Below, in pieces: positions 16,525 to 60,036 of a stretch of 64,000 bases of DNA. The stretch is from Schizochytrium sp. TIO01 (lineage: Eukaryota; Sar; Bigyra; Thraustochytrida; Thraustochytriidae). The position numbers and the translations under genes are program-made. The DNA is taken from positions 8,762,668-8,826,667 of the forward strand of contig SMSO01000032.1 of the NCBI GenBank assembly GCA_004764695.1, in the 5' to 3' direction. Below the pieces are notes generated by a model. It was not told where the DNA came from. It did no database searches and saw only the letters and a program-made list of their open reading frames with translations. How positions within the stretch are numbered: position 1 is the stretch's first letter; each line of letters begins with the position of its first letter.

Positions 16525-17211
16525 TCAGCTAAAGTAGCAGGCCCAGAGGGACATACCAAGGAAGATGAGGCTGACAGCTACGAGCATCTGCGCCTCTTTT
16601 TTAACGCTGGCGTCAAGGACCTTCTCGTCGAAGTTAAGGAAAACCGCTGCGACGGCCGCGAGGCCAAGCCAGACAAACATTCCGTACTGAAGCGAGTGCT
16701 TCTGGTCGATGGCCACGCCCTGAGCAGCAGCGATGAATTGGCAGGCAAGTCCGAAGGTCACAAGACCGAGCGTACGCGTGAGGCTCGTGTGGAAGGCCTC
16801 AGGGCTTGCCTGGTAGCTCTTGAGGTGAGCGATGTGGTCCGGGAAGAACATGAGCACGAGACCAAGGACAAGGACGAAGCTGTAAGTCACACGGAGCACA
16901 AGCTTTGTGGCAGTGTCGTCGCCAGCGGACGGGACAGAGGCAGCAGCAACAGCGGCCTTGTCGGCAACGCTCTTGGCAGCAACCTTGGCAGCGTCTTCAA
17001 AGTCCGTGACCTCATCCTCGGTGCCAGGCTCTTCGCCCTGCTTCGGCTTCTTCGTAGTCGTGCGGGGAGTGCGAGGAGTAGCGGACTTCGAGCGAGACGA
17101 CTTTCCGGGAGTCTTAGTCGTCTTGCGACCGCGCGAAGTGGCGGCTGAGGTCGAAGTCTTCGAAGTCTTCGACGAAGGAGAGCTCACGGCGGTAGATTCC
17201 TTCGTGGACAT
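16525..17211 (-). CDS. Hypothetical four-TM protein with S/T/K-rich N-terminal tail
   Basis: This 228-residue protein starts at ATG 17211 (MSTKESTAV); the frame extends 14 codons upstream only to a non-ATG codon. Residues 1-60 are almost entirely Ser, Thr, Lys, Arg and Pro, with repeated TP/SP sites (SATPRTPRTTTKK). This suggests a disordered, phosphorylatable cytosolic tail. Residues 65-95 are an Ala-rich acidic segment. Four hydrophobic segments follow at about 104-123, 145-165, 176-193 and 207-226, and the protein ends right after the last (LWACYFS). The loop after TM1 has FFPDHIAHLKSY. I do not recognise the family; small four-TM proteins of this shape occur in plastid, mitochondrial and Golgi membranes. 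Immediately upstream is an unusual 9-bp GATC-rich repeat. Confidence 0.75.
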   Translation of the reverse strand: MSTKESTAVSSPSSKTSKTSTSAATSRGRKTTKTPGKSSRSKSATPRTPRTTTKKPKQGEEPGTEDEVTDFEDAAKVAAKSVADKAAVAAASVPSAGDDTATKLVLRVTYSFVLVLGLVLMFFPDHIAHLKSYQASPEAFHTSLTRTLGLVTFGLACQFIAAAQGVAIDQKHSLQYGMFVWLGLAAVAAVFLNFDEKVLDASVKKEAQMLVAVSLIFLGMSLWACYFS

Positions 17212-17318
17212 TTTGCTCGCACGCAGATCAAGGCAAGGAGGACTGACAGGCACGCAGACGGAAGACGCGAGAGGACGAGAGAGATGTTGCCTTCGACGCC
17301 TGCTTTGCGAGATCGCTT

Positions 17319-17372: not shown

Positions 17373-17778
17373 TGCTGATGTTTCCGCCTTTCCTCCTATT
17401 ATTCCTCTTCCTTACAAGGTACTTAGTTAGTTAGCTATACCCTTAACTAAGCAATAAATAGCCTCTCCAAAGCTCGTTTGTTTCTTTGCCTCCTAATGAT
17501 GTCTGTTGTTAACCAACTAAGTGATTCTCGTTTCTCGCAAGTTTTCCGTCGCTGCGAGCTTAACACTCATTCCCAGCCTCCGGCTCCTCCGCTGGGCTCC
17601 AGTCTGCGCCAGCCCGGCAGCTCCTGCGCGGCAGCCGACTCGAGTCTCCTGCTCTGCTCTCGCGCTGCTCGTTGGTTATCCTTCGATCATCAGTCTAAGC
17701 AAATGCCAAATCAAATGATTTCTTCTTCTTCTTCTTATTCTCCTATTTACTACAAATACATTAAAAAACATAAATCTA

Positions 17779-22434: not shown

Positions 22435-23222
22435 GCATAGTGGAAAACTCAAGTTACCATGTTAACATAAAAGGGGCCGCCATATCAATGTGGGGGTCCA
22501 TCGACAAGCTGGTGTCCGCAGAGCAACAGCAAACCCCAAACAGCTCAACCACAAGCAACCAAACACGCAACTAAACAAGCAACCAAACAAGTAAACAAAC
22601 AAGTAAACAAACAAACAATGACACCAGACCTACAAAAGTAGCGATTGCGTATCACGAAACTGCGGATCGGCATTGTACGAGATGCTTAAAACTTTAGTTT
22701 CAATACCAACGCAACAACTGCGATGACGATATCCAAGTCCTTCGCGAGTCTCACCCAGATGGGTTGAGCAAACTAAGCAACGCTCGTGTACCTGGTGTAA
22801 AACATACCAGGGGCACTCACTCGAACTCTACAACAAACGGTTGTTCGAGTCCTTACAATCTCTTGATGTATTGTCACAATTGTTGACCTCGGCCTACTAC
22901 AATGCTGCAACAACGGTGCATTGCGATTGGTGCGCTTCACAACACTGGTGGTGCGACTTAATCAGCCTTCTAAGCATTTCCAGAAAGCTCGTTTATTCTT
23001 GGACAAGGCCATGCGAGGCCCTCCAATGCTTAGACGTGGCTTTCAGAAAGGGCTTACAGCCAAGGATCTGAGCCTTCTCATGTATAAAGGTAGTAGTTAT
23101 CCAGCGATGGTCCTGGCTGGATGTTTGCTGTAAACTGACTTCTTATCGAGGTTTAATCAAGGTCACGTCTCCTTTGACGATGTCATCTGGCTGACTTACT
23201 TTACAAGAGAATCTCCGGGATT
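22435..23222. other. Gene-free spacer between the two arrays
   Basis: No gene recognised. It includes an (A)ACAA/AAGC-rich run at about 22555-22615 and a possible hairpin at about 22790-22815 (CTGGT/ACCAG). TGCGATTGGTGCGC near 22922 weakly recalls the TGCGA motif. Short frames at 22841-23133 have no recognisable domain. Confidence 0.5.
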
Positions 23223-25370
23223 GACCACGCGAGGTCTTTCCCTTACTATGGGCTCTATTACGTTACGGAGGTCGTCTCCGCGGATTTGCATGTGAACATG
23301 TCTGTTAGATAGACCAAGCATAGTCTTTCTTTTCTAATACAAGATCTGTAGATATGAAAGAATGATGTACTGTTCGGAGCCGAGCCAAGGGAGGCCTTTT
23401 CTGAACTTTGAAATTCTAGAGTGACCAAGGGAGGTCTTTCTAATCGAAAACTTGTATACATCTTTCAATATTCGGCATTAAATCATGCGAAGTTTTCTCA
23501 CGAAGCGTTATCTGGATGCATTTATCTTCAAATTGATCAAGGGAGATCAACTTTGAAGTATTGAGGTTAGAAAAGCTATTTTACACCCCAAATGGTAACT
23601 GTAGCTGATTTTGCTACTATCAATGGAGGCTCTGAAGCGTGTTTGCAAATTGGTCAAGGGAGACCTTTGTGTGTAACATCTGGGCACATCATCGACAAGC
23701 ATATGAAAAGCACAAGTTCAAGCTGACAATGGATTATGGCCAAGGGAGGTCCCATATTCGCAAAAACTTTGTGTAGGTCAAAATAACTCATGCTACACTT
23801 GCCATTAGGGTTACTTTTTGTCTGATGAAGCTATGTGGATAATGACCAAGGGAGGTCCCACAAACAGCATCAGATATTGTGGCTGCAAAAGCGATAGGAT
23901 ACAACTGAAATTTAGATGCGAAATCGTGACCAAGGGAGGTTCTTTTTCAGCTGATGAACTTATTAGTGTCTCTGTCCTTTTACAGTTTGGAGTTGAGATA
24001 AATGAGAAGAAAATGAGGGGAAAGTTGCCGAAAGTACTGTGCAGATCAAGGGAGATCTTCATGGCGCCACCGGCTCAAACCCTCTCTTTCTGATCGTCAA
24101 CGTTTTGGGGGAACGGAGACTTGGGGCTCAACAAAAGGAGGTTTGATACATGCCCATTTCAGGTACACCAACATGATCAAGGGAGATCTGGTTAGCCTAA
24201 ATTTGGTCCTGACATATTTTCTTTTTGTGGCACCACTTTGGAGACACATGCACAATCATAACCATCACTGTGCTTCGAATGTGATCAAGGGAGATCCTCG
24301 AGCATACATATGATTATGACTTCATTGCATTATTGTTGGTATATTTGTAGCTTGAAGATGACCAAGGGAGGTTCCTTCATTCAACAAATAAAGACTACAA
24401 ATTTTCGATGCCACGCTCACGCTCAGTAAACCTGATGAGACCAAGGGAGGTCCTTCAAGTTACTGTGCAGAACTATACTGTGTGCTTGGGCTCTGTATGT
24501 AGGACAAAAACCAAGGGAGGTTTCCTACGCGTGGATCCAAGACACTTTAAATTCTCCTCTCAGTCAAGCCTCCTCCTCAACTTTTCTTCATTGAGTGAAA
24601 ACACAAGATACAAGTGTCCTAGCATGAAAACAAATGACCAAGGGAGGTCTTTTATGTCTTCGACACACAAACCCGTGTTTGCTCTCCTTAAGGCAATGGT
24701 GAATGACCTTATGCATGTCAGTTTTTCGACAAACCCTATTCACAAGACTAAGGGAAGTCCTTTGTGATGATGGCCACGTCTATGCGCTGTATGCATGTTT
24801 ATTTATTGTGTGAAGAATTTGAGCCAAGGGAGGTTCTTTCTGCGTGCAATAAAGCAACTCCTTCAGTCTTCGCCCGAACCAATATAAACGTCCTCAATTC
24901 ACAGCTATCACCTATCTGTGCACTTTTCCATCACATCCAACTCCGATCATCCCTATCTCAACTTTACAATCAGTAAGATGACTACAAACTAAGTGACCCA
25001 TAGTCTTCTGCCCACTACCAATCTCCAGTAAATCGCTGCACCTAGCATCTTGTGAACGACACGTAAGTATTGTCCAAGGGAGGACTTTCCAAACTCGTGG
25101 CTTTCACAATATGCTATAGATTTTGAAGGATATGCTGCAACGTCGAGCACCATCTCTGCCCAAGGGAGGACTTTGATGCATTTGCCAACACATTGTTGCC
25201 TTATCCTGATTGCACATTTTTCATACGCCAAGGAAGGCCTGATATACTGTGAGATGAGTAATAGGTCAAGACTTTAAAGTTCCACTTTATTATTCCCAGG
25301 GATCTGACAGAGTAAACCATACTGCCATCGTTGAACAAAGTTCATGCATGACCAAGGGAGGTTTCATACT
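23217..25370 (+). repeat. Array of ~22 stem-loops with conserved AAGGGA hexaloop and covarying stems
   Basis: Loop starts on the + strand: 23227 (variant ACGCGA), 23315 (degenerate), 23387, 23427, 23539, 23656, 23742, 23848, 23932, 24048, 24179, 24287, 24364, 24443, 24513, 24640, 24750, 24826, 25076, 25162, 25230 (AAGGAA) and 25354. Most spacings are 70-130 bp. The closing stem changes while staying paired: GACC/GGTC (23423, 23844, 24439, 24636), GATC/GATC (23535, 24044, 24175, 24283), GGTC/GACC (23652), GACT/AGTC (24746), GTCC/GGAC (25072), GCC/GGC (23384, 25227) and AACC/GGTT (24509). Outside a small bulge or internal loop many copies pair again: GGGA/TCCC, TAGA/TCTA, TGTGG/CCACA, CTGAAA/TTTCAG, TGAAG/CTTCA, GTAGG/CCTAC and CACAA/TTGTG. 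Sequence between hairpins is not conserved and frames are broken, so this is not coding. It is probably part of a structured RNA. Confidence 0.85.
23526..23558 (+). repeat. Longest hairpin of the AAGGGA array (13 bp stem)
   Basis: CTTCAAA plus TTGATC (23526-23538), loop AAGGGA (23539-23544), then GATCAA, one bulged C (23551) and TTTGAAG (to 23558). All 13 pairs are Watson-Crick, with one bulge separating a 6-bp inner helix and a 7-bp outer helix. It shows the general plan of the array in its clearest form. Confidence 0.9.
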
Positions 25371-26955
25371 ATGAGCTTTCACAACGTGCAGCGTCCTCAC
25401 CTGGACATGTCTTCTACACTCTTCTGTCTCTGAGTTACCCGTGGCACGGTCTATTTTATTGACCTATCTATTTTTTTTTTCTAACCCTTGCTTTCAGCAT
25501 GTTCAAAGGCCAAGGGTCGAGTGCGGCCTTGGTTAGGTAGGGCCTTTGGGATGCGGCCACGAACGCTAGAAAATTTTCGCCAAATACCTTATTTGTAGCA
25601 AGGTACGCGCAACTTACGATAACCAAGTAAATTGTGTGAATTGCTTCTATAGTGGCACCCAAACTTTAAGTACTTAAAACACAGAACACATTTTGCTTAT
25701 ATATTTTCATTTCCACTTCGTTTCAGTTCTTACTTTTAATACAACTCTGAAGGCTTCCGAACATTGCAGTATCAGCACTGGCAGCTTTCCAAGTGCTTGC
25801 TTCCCTCCTTTTGGTTATCATTATTATGATTGCATAATTATCATTATCATTCTTGCTATTATACTTATTAAAATTGTCCCGACTCGGCAACACCAAGAAA
25901 GAACTCTAAATCGAAGACTCTCGGGGACCTTCTTAACGTCTACCTTTGACAATGTGTAGGTCCCGTGAAGCAGCGTGTAGATCGTTTTGGTTCTTCTTCA
26001 ACATGGTTACTTTCAATTTAAGTCTGATAGCTTGGAGTCGTACAATCCTCAGTCGGATAAAACTCTCGTAAGAGTCTCTGAAAGACGTTGAGAGGTAGCT
26101 CGGAGCAATGTTCAGCAATAGAGAGGTTGTTCAAATCGTCATACGTTTACGATAGCGTGGTGGTTTGGAACGCCACAGTGAGAGCTTCGTTTCAGACTAG
26201 TGTTACGATGTGTGAGAGTGACTTCGTTTATGATATGTGAACTGATTGCGAGCTTGCAAAATCTGAGAATGTGTATTGTCAAAAGGAAAGCAAGAGACAA
26301 CATGGAGAGGAAAATACAATCGTTGGCAAGAAGATAGGGACAATAACAATTAAATATTGAGAGAAGCAAATGAAATGTCGCATGAAAAGTGGGGCTGATG
26401 ATATTAACAGAGAAACAGTTTCAGGATTTTTTTATTTTTTTTTAATTTGAAGCTACAAAGGAAGATTTTAGTCACAAGATCATCAGACAGGGAACAGATG
26501 TCAGAGTGGTGGAAACCTCTACATAGATCTTAGTGAATGCAGTTGAAGAGCTCTGCTAGTACTTCGTCGAGGGTAACCCAATAATCTTTTAGTGGCGGCA
26601 GCAAAAACAAGAGCAGCGGCTGGAACGTTTCCCTTGGTGAAAGAATCCAATATAATGCTATGCTGCAAAAAGAAATCACTTTAAAGTGTATGAGTTCTGT
26701 GATGGGCTCGTTCTTTTCTTTTTCTTTTTTTTTTGCGTGATGCGCACATTTGATTTCCACATGCTGGGGTACACAGGGCAAAAGCGTCGTAGACAGGTTG
26801 TACAGGGCTACTCAAGTTTCTTGCTAGTGATGTGTGTGTGTTGGGGTGGGGGTATGAAGTGGGTTTGTTTGAATGTATGGTCGGGTTGCAGTCCTATTGT
26901 TTTGATTCCATGAGGGCGTTGATATGTTTGGCTCGCGTGCCTGCGAAAGAGGTGT
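25371..26955. other. Gene-free region
   Basis: No gene recognised. An inverted repeat AAAGGCC (25505) / GGCCTTT (25541) lies just beyond the hairpin array and may be its last, larger helix. There are T-rich tracts near 25472, 26428 and 26722. From about 26700 the sequence is the 3' flank of the Cys-rich membrane protein gene (-). Confidence 0.5.
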
Positions 26956-27474
26956 TTAGACCTTCTCTACAAGGGACGTCTCAAGATCTAATGCGGGGTT
27001 TTCTGCACCCCCATCCAAGTCTATTGAGTTGGCCTTGTTGTTGGTATTAATGCGGCTGTTGAGCACGAACAGACCAATGATGAAGCCAAAGATGCCCAAA
27101 AATCCCGATACGAGAGCAAAGATTGCAATCGTGCGGGGTTGCATAACGCGCTTTTCCTCAGGCAGGTGGGCCTCGCGCGATCTGAGGCAATAGGTGCTCA
27201 CAGCCATGAAGATCAGCGAGACGGTTACTGCAACGAGCATGCAGTGGTAAGGATAATTTTGTGTGCAGCGGATTGAAAATCTTTGGACCTTGTTGATCAT
27301 GTCCTCGAGCTCGTCATACTCATGGAGATTGTCCAGCACAGATGCCTTGTTTATCCATGGGCGGCTCACGCACTGAATTACAGTGGAGAAAATGTAGCAT
27401 CCCCCGCTCTCGCATAGATTCTCGCAGCAGCTGTCCTCTGCGCTGTAAAACTCAAGTGATTTGCAAAGAGGCAT
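26956..27474 (-). CDS. Cys-rich two-TM membrane protein, paralogue A
   Basis: This 172-residue protein starts at ATG 27474 (MPLCKSLEF); the five codons upstream begin with a non-ATG codon. The N-terminal 75 residues contain a cysteine cluster CCENLCESGGC (C16, C17, C21, C26) and further Cys at 35, 70 and 78. TM1 is about 78-96. The short loop REAHLPEEKRV (100-110) precedes TM2 (about 116-138), and an acidic C-tail ends LETSLVEKV. A second gene at 37266-37742 has the same plan and the same loop (READLPPESRV), so the two are paralogues. With no signal peptide, a likely topology puts both termini on one side of the membrane. Whether the Cys cluster is luminal (disulphides) or cytosolic (metal, acylation) cannot be decided. 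No known family is recognised. Confidence 0.8.
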   Translation of the reverse strand: MPLCKSLEFYSAEDSCCENLCESGGCYIFSTVIQCVSRPWINKASVLDNLHEYDELEDMINKVQRFSIRCTQNYPYHCMLVAVTVSLIFMAVSTYCLRSREAHLPEEKRVMQPRTIAIFALVSGFLGIFGFIIGLFVLNSRINTNNKANSIDLDGGAENPALDLETSLVEKV

Positions 27475-28138
27475 TTTTCTGTTCGTCACCTCGACTCACG
27501 GAAGCAACAGCAGCAGCCGAATCTACAACGCTAATAATCCTCCACTCTAATGGTCCTGTTTGTCTCCGCTACAGGTGGAATGTCTGTTAGCGAGCTGATC
27601 CGTCGGCCCGAGCTTGTCCAGATAGCGCAGCAATCGAACGAGTGATGATAACGGGAGTGAATAAATTGGTACAAAAGTCACCCCTCCCAAAAGCAGAAGA
27701 CCTTCTCCACAAAGGCAGACTTGCTAAGCTAAACACGGCCAGAATTAATTCTTGAGACTTGAACAAGCCTCGAAGCGTCCCTCTCGCGGTAGGCGGGGCG
27801 CGTGGTTCTGCTCCACTATACTCCTCAGAGAGCGGAGACGAGCAAGAGAACCCTGGCTACGGTACGAGCAGCAGCGACAACGCTTTACAGCTACTGTAAT
27901 AGTACAAGACTCTCAGGCAGCCGCACGCTTTGCGGTCTAACACTCTAACTCCGTCGCTCGCCGCGTACTCCAGGCAGGCAGCCAGGGGTACCGGCTTGTC
28001 CACCGCGGGCGTGCTTCTCTGTCGCGGCAGGCACGCAGGCAGGCACGCAGGCAACCAGCAAGCGTGAGCACCACGCTATCAGCGGGCGGAGCGACTTTGG
28101 AGGACCGAGCGGAAGTAGTTCTCAGTTTGCTTTCTCTC

Positions 28139-59365: not shown

Positions 59366-60036
59366 CTACAGAGAACTTGTGGCATGAAAGTCTTCAAGGG
59401 TGTCAGCCAAAAGATCAAGGGCTGCTGCAGTAAATGAGGTCATATTTGCAACCCGATCGCTTGAGTTAGTTTCAATTAAACGAACTGCCATAACAGGCTT
59501 TCCGGTGCGGGGATGAGGCGGTCCCGCAACTCCCACCGCAGTAAACCCAGATTGAACTCCAGGGATGTAAAACTTGGGACCAGAAGTTCCGGACTCTACT
59601 ACACACCAGTCAGTGCGGTAGTAGTCCCGCATAAGAGGAGCAACGGTCTCCGCAAATAACTTCTTGCTCTCAACGTAGTTCTCACGGTTCTTGTAGTTAT
59701 TCTCACGATCGAACACTGACGCTGCTTCAAGGACATTCTGTGGTAAGAACTTCTTATATCCTCGTCCAGAATAAACCACACACGAGGAAACAAAAAAGGC
59801 ACTTGCACCGGCACACCCAAGCAAACTCGCACTACAACACTCCAACATTGGATCAATCATCGCCCAGAATGCCATCATTTCCAGTTAGTCCTTACGTCAG
59901 TCCGTCTGAGACCCAAACCAAGCAATGAGCCCAATACTTACCCGATCAGGCCTCCCGAGGTGGCCTCCACCACCGAAACCCGCTGTTTATGCTTAGCCAG
60001 CAGCTTTGCGGCTCTCGTGGCGCGCTCCACGTCCAT
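59366..60036 (-). CDS. CinA C-terminal-like protein (PncC family), two exons
   Basis: Exon 1 is 60036-59942 and exon 2 is 59831-59366, giving 186 residues. The intron of 110 bp begins GTAAGT (59941) and ends TGTAG (59832), with ACTAAC near 59885 as a branch box. It splits a Gly codon after two bases. Splicing joins RVSVVEATSGGLIG to ASLLGCAGASAFFVSSCVVYS. This restores the family core AESxxGG-LI-xxL---GAS-xF-----VY at residues 22-52, followed by AVGVAGPPHPRTGKPV, the V-GxAGP...KPVG-V motif. An unspliced reading starting at 59878 would lose the first half of the core. Bacterial members (PncC, CinA C-domain) deamidate nicotinamide mononucleotide. Here the usual AESCTGG is VEATSGG, so activity is uncertain. 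MDVERATRAAKLLAKHKQ at the start resembles the first helix of the family. Confidence 0.82.
59832..59941 (-). other. Intron of the CinA-like gene
   Basis: A 110-bp intron with a GTAAGTATT donor, an ACTAAC branch-like box about 50 bases before the 3' end, and a TAG acceptor. It is the only intron I can support strongly in the window, because joining the flanks restores a conserved protein motif in frame. Confidence 0.8.

Follow-up and report, generated by a model that had tools for sequence, protein, structure and literature searches.

A tandem array of about 21 hairpins with a shared hexaloop in the genome of Schizochytrium sp. TIO01, a possible multivalent non-coding RNA

The array and its locus

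We describe an array of short hairpins in a 64,000-nucleotide stretch of the genome of the thraustochytrid Schizochytrium sp. TIO01 (GenBank assembly GCA_004764695.1, contig SMSO01000032.1, forward-strand positions 8,762,668 to 8,826,667), referred to below as the window and numbered from its first nucleotide; the whole genome comprises 64.06 Mb in 37 contigs. The array occupies 23217..25379, probably on the + strand, as delimited by tests of loop, fold, covariation and lower helix, and lies in a gene-poor part of the window between two open reading frames (ORFs) of the - strand, 16525-17253 and 26956-27489. A scan of the region located 19 exact copies of the loop AAGGGA on the + strand, from 23387 to 25354, and two variant loops, AAGGAA at 25230 and ACGCGA at 23227, giving 21 sites spaced 40 to 250 bp apart with a mean of 106. 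A first-pass annotation of this DNA had proposed about 22 hairpins roughly 100 bp apart, each closed by a stem of 3 to 6 bp; the array and its spacing were borne out, the count fell to 21, and the stem length was right for 18 of the 19 exact copies (3 bp in one, 4 bp in 13, 5 bp in three and 6 bp in one) and wrong for the site at 25162, which has 2 bp. Every covarying stem type that the annotation had listed was found. A single AAGGGA on the - strand, at 23239, has a stem of 1 bp and was excluded from the array set.

Stems of at least 3 bp close 18 of the 19 AAGGGA copies inside the region and 3 of 36 outside, counting both strands (Fisher p = 1.6e-10), and none of the region's other + strand hexamers forms more than three such hairpins. 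A relaxed consensus, A-N-G-N-R-A, fits both variant loops; the region's + strand has 19 hairpins that combine such a loop with a stem of 4 bp or more, and the remaining 61 kb have 23 when both strands are counted. The trinucleotide GGA is present in 20 of the 21 loops, and positions 3 to 6 of the consensus spell a GNRA word, so that the loop may fold in a GNRA-like manner. Three further places are candidate degenerate units and were left out of the 21 counted: the hairpin GGCC-ATGCGA-GGCC at 23005-23024 (loop 23011), which also fits the relaxed consensus, and the GAC...GTC remnants GACCAAGCATAGTC and GACCCATAGTC, at approximately 23312 and 24995, in the two widest gaps.

The earlier suggestion of a non-coding locus fits what was found. 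No Pfam match was obtained in the six stop-to-stop frames scanned from the gap that holds the array, a set that did not include those at 17451, 17676 and 18889 or some further frames 70 or more amino acids (aa) long; the longest ATG-initiated frame within the array has 119 aa, and the stop-to-stop frame enclosing it was without a Pfam match. For the frame at 26959-27495 a single Pfam hit was obtained, below the threshold. Rfam returned no match at the gathering score in the 64 kb and none at E up to 10 in 22500-26200, in line with the earlier statement that no described family is known to have this loop, and no second copy of the locus was found. Elsewhere in the window, 6 of the 10 ORFs scanned had Pfam matches, among them a 959-aa protein in a single frame with HECT, WW and fibronectin domains, an amino-acid transporter, a DUF1295 protein and a sulfotransferase-like protein; by these matches and the eukaryotic ribosomal DNA (rDNA) in the genome, the window is eukaryotic. 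The 18S sequence in that rDNA appears to resemble the 18S of thraustochytrids such as Aurantiochytrium. Just past the array, at 25471-25497, a T-run, CTAAC and TTTCAG look by eye like the 3' end of an intron, and a GTAAGT stands at 25063; a simple pattern for a pyrimidine-rich 3' splice site found none between 17.5 and 27.5 kb, 25471-25497 included.

Pairing in the upper stem and beneath it

Taken over 21 sites and four pairs, the upper stem is paired in 96.4% of cells. Double changes occur at all four pairs, which 7 of 500 shuffles equalled; doubly changed cells number 12, compared with 2.7 in shuffles, and the covariation score of 0.548 (0.279 in shuffles) was reached by none of the 500. Further pair types were not in excess (7 against 6.0 in shuffles; 141 of 500). 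In a column-pair test, which was a G-test with average product correction over all 190 column pairs and 300 column permutations rather than R-scape, the two middle stem pairs took ranks 1 and 2, one of them lying above the values of all 300 permutations and the other having an E of 0.003; the innermost pair, which is nearly invariant, had an E of 0.6, and the outermost, which changes through G-U, fell outside the top twelve. The covariation of the stem that the first-pass annotation had asserted is upheld by the double changes, the score and two stem pairs with E below 0.01. Ranks 3 and 4 went to two pairs of adjacent columns outside the stem (E 0.02 and 0.08), which indicates some background of relatedness; a single inherited swap is ruled out as an explanation because the stem changes come in several combinations.

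Beneath the 4-bp core, if up to six unpaired bases are allowed per side, 19 of the 21 sites could form a lower helix of 4 bp or more and 13 one of 5 bp or more, with a different sequence at each; among the new findings this is the one with the strongest support. When flanks were re-paired between sites, the summed lower-helix score of 209 dropped to 96.9 +/- 18.8 and the 13 sites with at least 5 bp to a mean of 5.0, neither value being reached in 2,000 re-pairings; with Watson-Crick pairs only, 15 of the 21 sites retain a possible lower helix, and the score is 147.5 compared with 40.7 +/- 17.3 (0 of 5,000). The outer helix beyond an internal loop, which had been claimed earlier, is therefore borne out collectively by these 0/2000 and 0/5000 outcomes. 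They also bear on the notion that the array is a relic, an old tandem duplication whose hairpins were kept by descent and have no current function. Some units are indeed still alike (those at 23730 and 23836 are 92% similar over 25 nt), the adjacent columns outside the stem covary, and the evidence comes from a single genome, all of which a relic would allow; however, the flanks are unrelated in sequence and yet paired, whereas drift from one ancestor would destroy pairing, and we regard this explanation as very improbable.

Folding energies point in the same direction as the re-pairings. Shuffling the 0 to 30 nt outside the core worsened the energy (mean z -1.33, Fisher p 2.4e-6), as did shuffling 12 to 30 nt (p 1.1e-4), and shuffling 30 to 60 nt had no effect (p 0.79); in a control of 63 of the 788 random window hairpins with 4 bp and a 6-nt loop, the effect was weak at most: the mean z was -0.28, with p values of 0.15, 0.33 and 0.086 per 21 and 0.057 for all 63. 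In minimum-energy folds of the sites with 30 nt on either side, the AAGGGA-type hairpin forms at all but two, with just two pairs at 25354. Preferences beyond the core are a T at -5 in 14 of 21 sites and a pyrimidine at +10 in 20 and at +11 in 18; an A at -35 in 14 and at +30 in 12 passed the same threshold and is probably noise. No shared box or end motif beyond the core stands out among the 21 units.

The individual units, all placed on the + strand, are as follows. Hairpin 1 (23217..23242) has the ACGCGA loop, an upper stem of 4 bp and a lower helix GGGA/TCCC; all others except site 20 carry AAGGGA. Upper stems of 3, 4 and 6 bp stand above lower helices of 8, 5 and 7 bp in hairpins 2 (23372..23406), 3 (23417..23442) and 4 (23526..23558). 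Hairpin 5 (23644..23671) combines the stem GGTC/GACC with a 6-bp lower helix and hairpin 6 (23730..23760) GGCC/GGTC with one of 5 bp. The stem GACC/GGTC is found in hairpins 7 (23834..23862; lower helix TGTGG/CCACA), 13 (24433..24462; a weak lower helix of 4 bp) and 15 (24622..24657; 8 bp), and the stem GACC/GGTT in hairpins 8 (23920..23948; 4 bp), 12 (24353..24379; TGAAG/CTTCA) and 21 (25337..25379; 10 bp). Hairpins 10 (24167..24192; lower helix ACCA/TGGT) and 11 (24274..24302; 5 bp) have GATC/GATC, and hairpin 9 (24037..24064; 5 bp) AGATC/GATCT. Hairpin 14 (24498..24529) has the stem AAACC/GGTTT and a 7-bp lower helix, the first pair of which is in competition with pair five of the stem, hairpin 16 (24740..24767) GACT/AGTC above TCACAA/TTGTGA, and hairpin 17 (24814..24841) GAGCC/GGTTC above 4 bp. 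Of the remaining units, hairpin 18 (25072..25085; stem GTCC/GGAC) has no lower helix within 6 nt and a predicted one farther out; site 19 (25151..25178) has a loop-adjacent stem of only 2 bp and a possible lower helix CATC/GATG; and site 20 (25227..25238), with the AAGGAA loop and the stem GCC/GGC, has none that was found. Sites 19 and 20 are the two absent from the minimum-energy folds.

Copies elsewhere and comparison with known systems

Further arrays, which had earlier been proposed as something to look for across the genome, did not turn up in the searches made of its 64 Mb. A DNA search of the genome with 23000-25500 returned only the self-match. All four genomic occurrences of GATCAAGGGAGATC lie inside the array, as do 13 of the 117 of CCAAGGGAGG and four of the six of GACCAAGGGAGGTC; the two others of GACCAAGGGAGGTC, considered as dispersed copies and rejected, are L001, which overlaps an opposite-strand open frame of 341 aa, and the isolated L002, with about 0.5 expected by chance at equal base frequencies. 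Two paired-site patterns run on the same genome detected no second comparable array, a search that would miss arrays with another loop; 4 of 10 matches to the first (control 1) and 3 of 9 to the second (control 0) fell outside the array, and three of the former belong to one tandem repeat on contig C33. That repeat (G000:C33:290217-290491) recurs about every 91 bp, contains CAAGGGAGCC in those units that were listed, and looks unrelated to the array. A genome sample was taken as 20 stretches of contig C13, 200 kb in all, of which 20 kb are N; in spans of 2.5 kb, its largest clusters of same-loop hairpins hold 6 to 53 copies and consist of repeats of the TGAT, ATGAAT or TA type, while the next largest cluster has four. 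The cluster of 53, at L068 1364-3685 (G000:C13:4910000-4919999), covers 2.3 kb of TGAT-type repeats and is probably a simple repeat. Outside this genome, the patterns matched 2 and 15 viral loci and 22 prokaryotic loci. Among loci with at least three AAGGGA per strand, copies with at least 4 bp numbered three in L012, two in L025, two in L031 and five in L036 (the four shown being identical), with none in the others, and the viral and prokaryotic contigs contained no similar array and no long run of differing stems. In the literature searched, AAGGGA and a hexaloop occurred together in no paper, and an array of this kind in a thraustochytrid was not found among the matches listed, as far as their available text extends.

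Clusters of small nucleolar RNAs (snoRNAs) or microRNAs (miRNAs) expressed polycistronically likewise consist of structured units of unrelated sequence on one presumed transcript, and the array may be viewed as a precursor from which some 21 small structured RNAs, each 60 to 75 nt long, would be released; the apical hairpin would then be a family core or processing signal, with individual function residing in the linkers and variable helices. This agrees with an excess of pairing that extends about 30 nt per side and no farther, with linkers of tens of bases between most units, with outer sequence that differs in every unit and with an abundance of TGATGA (4 copies, 1.3 expected) and CTGATGA (3 copies, 0.2 expected). 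The TGATGA words, however, occur in at most 4 of the 21 units at no fixed place, the full C-box RTGATGA is present once in the 2.2 kb (0.8 expected) and CTGA 13 times (8.7 expected), and no common box or end motif is conspicuous among the units outside the core. A box C/D snoRNA cluster was rejected, the boxes being out of register and complementarity to ribosomal RNA (rRNA) not above the window background: the + strand of the array has no exact 12-nt complement to the small-subunit rRNA, to L053 from 2450 on or to L054 (two rDNA loci described below), and fewer 10- to 11-mer complements than the mean of other window segments, and the - strand has two 12-nt complements to L054, where other window segments average 6.5. 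A miRNA cluster was rejected as well, since genome profile searches for Piwi (PF02171) and RNase III (PF00636) gave no matches and no first-look candidates for either, searches that could miss diverged or intron-split copies; fibrillarin, the positive control, was detected at 1.5e-103. Overall, we judge a small-RNA precursor to be possible but on the unlikely side.

A near-invariant loop on a stem of free sequence is also what a kissing partner would be expected to select, and the AAGGGA loops could pair with UCCCUU of another RNA, making the array a multi-site RNA sponge. The variant loops ACGCGA, AAGGAA and possibly ATGCGA break any single complement, and the single rRNA unit searched contains one TCCCTT and no CTCCCTTG; an antisense seed therefore appears improbable.

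CsrB, a bacterial regulator, offers the closest design to the array in the sources as available, combining hexaloop, GGA and short stem. Of 55 ligands of CsrA obtained by systematic evolution of ligands by exponential enrichment, 51 had GGA in a hairpin loop and 44 a six-nucleotide loop, most stems having no more than four contiguous pairs, with the consensus RUACARGGAUGU, according to the accessible part of that report (PMC7652899). The array is like CsrB/CsrC and RsmX/Y/Z in its multiple short-stem hairpins with GGA hexaloops, although its location on one RNA is putative here; the CsrB and RsmZ decoys are bacterial, whereas the array has a spacing of about 106 bp and a lower helix. CsrB-type RNAs are also much shorter. 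The CsrA family PF02599 had no match in the genome of the array and matches in 3 of 14 control genomes, and with a profile of only 53 positions a diverged protein could be missed. The closest eukaryotic design found, again within the accessible text, is that of roX, a long RNA with a short repeated motif in stem-loops, often the sole recognisable link between orthologues, in which repeat number correlates with X-chromosome occupancy and the roXbox is an 8-nt motif (PMC4719309). The array shares with roX1 and roX2 of Drosophila the repeated motif in stem-loops, while roX is a chromatin-bound transcript that binds dosage-compensation proteins and serves dosage compensation. Fewer elements are present in roX than in the array.

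The first-pass annotation had further likened the plan of the units to that of the iron-responsive element, and the layout is the same, with a hexaloop, a short upper helix, unpaired bases and a lower helix; loop and fixed bulge are not. Iron-responsive elements have a CAGUGN loop and an unpaired C beneath a 5-bp upper helix, and occur singly or a few per mRNA. Membership was rejected, given the AAGGGA loop in 19 of 21 sites, an upper helix that is usually of four pairs (13 of the 19 exact copies) and the absence of an Rfam match at E up to 10. By these comparisons, the array has not been placed in any tested family.

A proposed multivalent RNA

Our preferred interpretation, to which we assign a probability of about one-half, is that the array belongs to a lineage-specific non-coding RNA with about 21 copies of one hairpin for a binding partner, acting as a decoy or scaffold; transcription, the + strand, a protein partner and the decoy or scaffold role are what we infer from the DNA. 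The function put forward in the first-pass annotation, binding sites for one protein or antisense partner, would be the most economical account. An RNA of at least 2.2 kb, probably from the + strand, would present some 21 recognition hairpins, each with an AAGGGA hexaloop (A-N-G-N-R-A), a stem mostly of 4 bp and, beyond an internal loop, a lower helix free to vary in sequence, and one RNA-binding protein or one complex would recognise the loop together with the shape. Constraint on the loop and on the pairing, not the sequence, of both helices is the pattern to be expected if a single protein recognised a shaped loop. With many copies per transcript, the protein might be titrated, as CsrA is by the decoy CsrB, or concentrated at the RNA, as with the scaffold roX. 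The presence of about 21 copies at one locus, when no excess could be detected elsewhere, is suggestive of a single multivalent RNA; as target-like hairpins are not over-represented, the scaffold form is slightly favoured over the decoy form. Only tentatively do we go further and suggest a eukaryotic decoy or scaffold RNA of independently evolved CsrB design, with a putative protein reading A-N-G-N-R-A, in a lineage in which no RNA interference domain was found.

Several observations weigh against this proposal. The evidence for loop and pairing comes from the DNA sequence of one genome. A decoy would be expected to have targets elsewhere, yet CCAAGGGAGG outside the array shows no excess (104 occurrences versus 102 of a reversed control), and AAGGGA with at least 4 bp accounted for 3 of 84 copies in the C13 sample, the background being 2.25%. 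One of the loops, ACGCGA, is without GGA. Single units of 90 to 120 nt beat their shuffles modestly (z -0.48 to -2.49; 7 of the 21 units folded), and two of the 21 sites, 25162 and 25230, lack the hairpin in the minimum-energy fold, so that support for the outer helix is collective.

Nor do folding energies separate the strands (mean -18.10 on the + strand and -17.94 on the - strand, the former lower in 12 of 21; p = 0.78). Equal fold strength on both strands, with transcription of the array a matter of inference, would suit an element that acts at the DNA level, through inverted-repeat binding sites or single-strand hairpins in replication or chromatin. A dimeric DNA-binding protein, however, would need neither matched half-site changes at all four positions nor a lower helix whose sequence is arbitrary and whose offset varies; we consider such an element quite improbable. 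For a transcribed array, the + strand is likely to be the RNA strand: the five G-U cells of the upper stem, compared with two A-C, mildly favour it, and the lower-helix score is 209 (z 5.6) when G-U is added to Watson-Crick pairs and 193.5 (z 5.3) when A-C is added.

The 21 or so copies at one locus provide covariation that usually takes many genomes to obtain. Structured eukaryotic long RNAs supported by covariation are rare, with few beyond animals, fungi and plants. If transcribed, the array would make a ready protist test case for multivalent RNA-protein regulation, with its hairpin able to serve directly as bait for the partner.

Two further features were noted in the course of this analysis. 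At 59369-59878 on the - strand of the window, a 170-aa frame matches CinA (E 3.3e-11), a mostly bacterial family. The long contig C13 contains, about 295 kb in from its end, a copy of the rDNA (L053 577-4329 in G000:C13), with the 18S at 577-2364 and a large-subunit match that ends at profile position 1453; it shares 98% identity with L054, which holds the complete unit, as far as L053 position 4329, beyond which no similarity was found, and by this comparison is a truncated copy.

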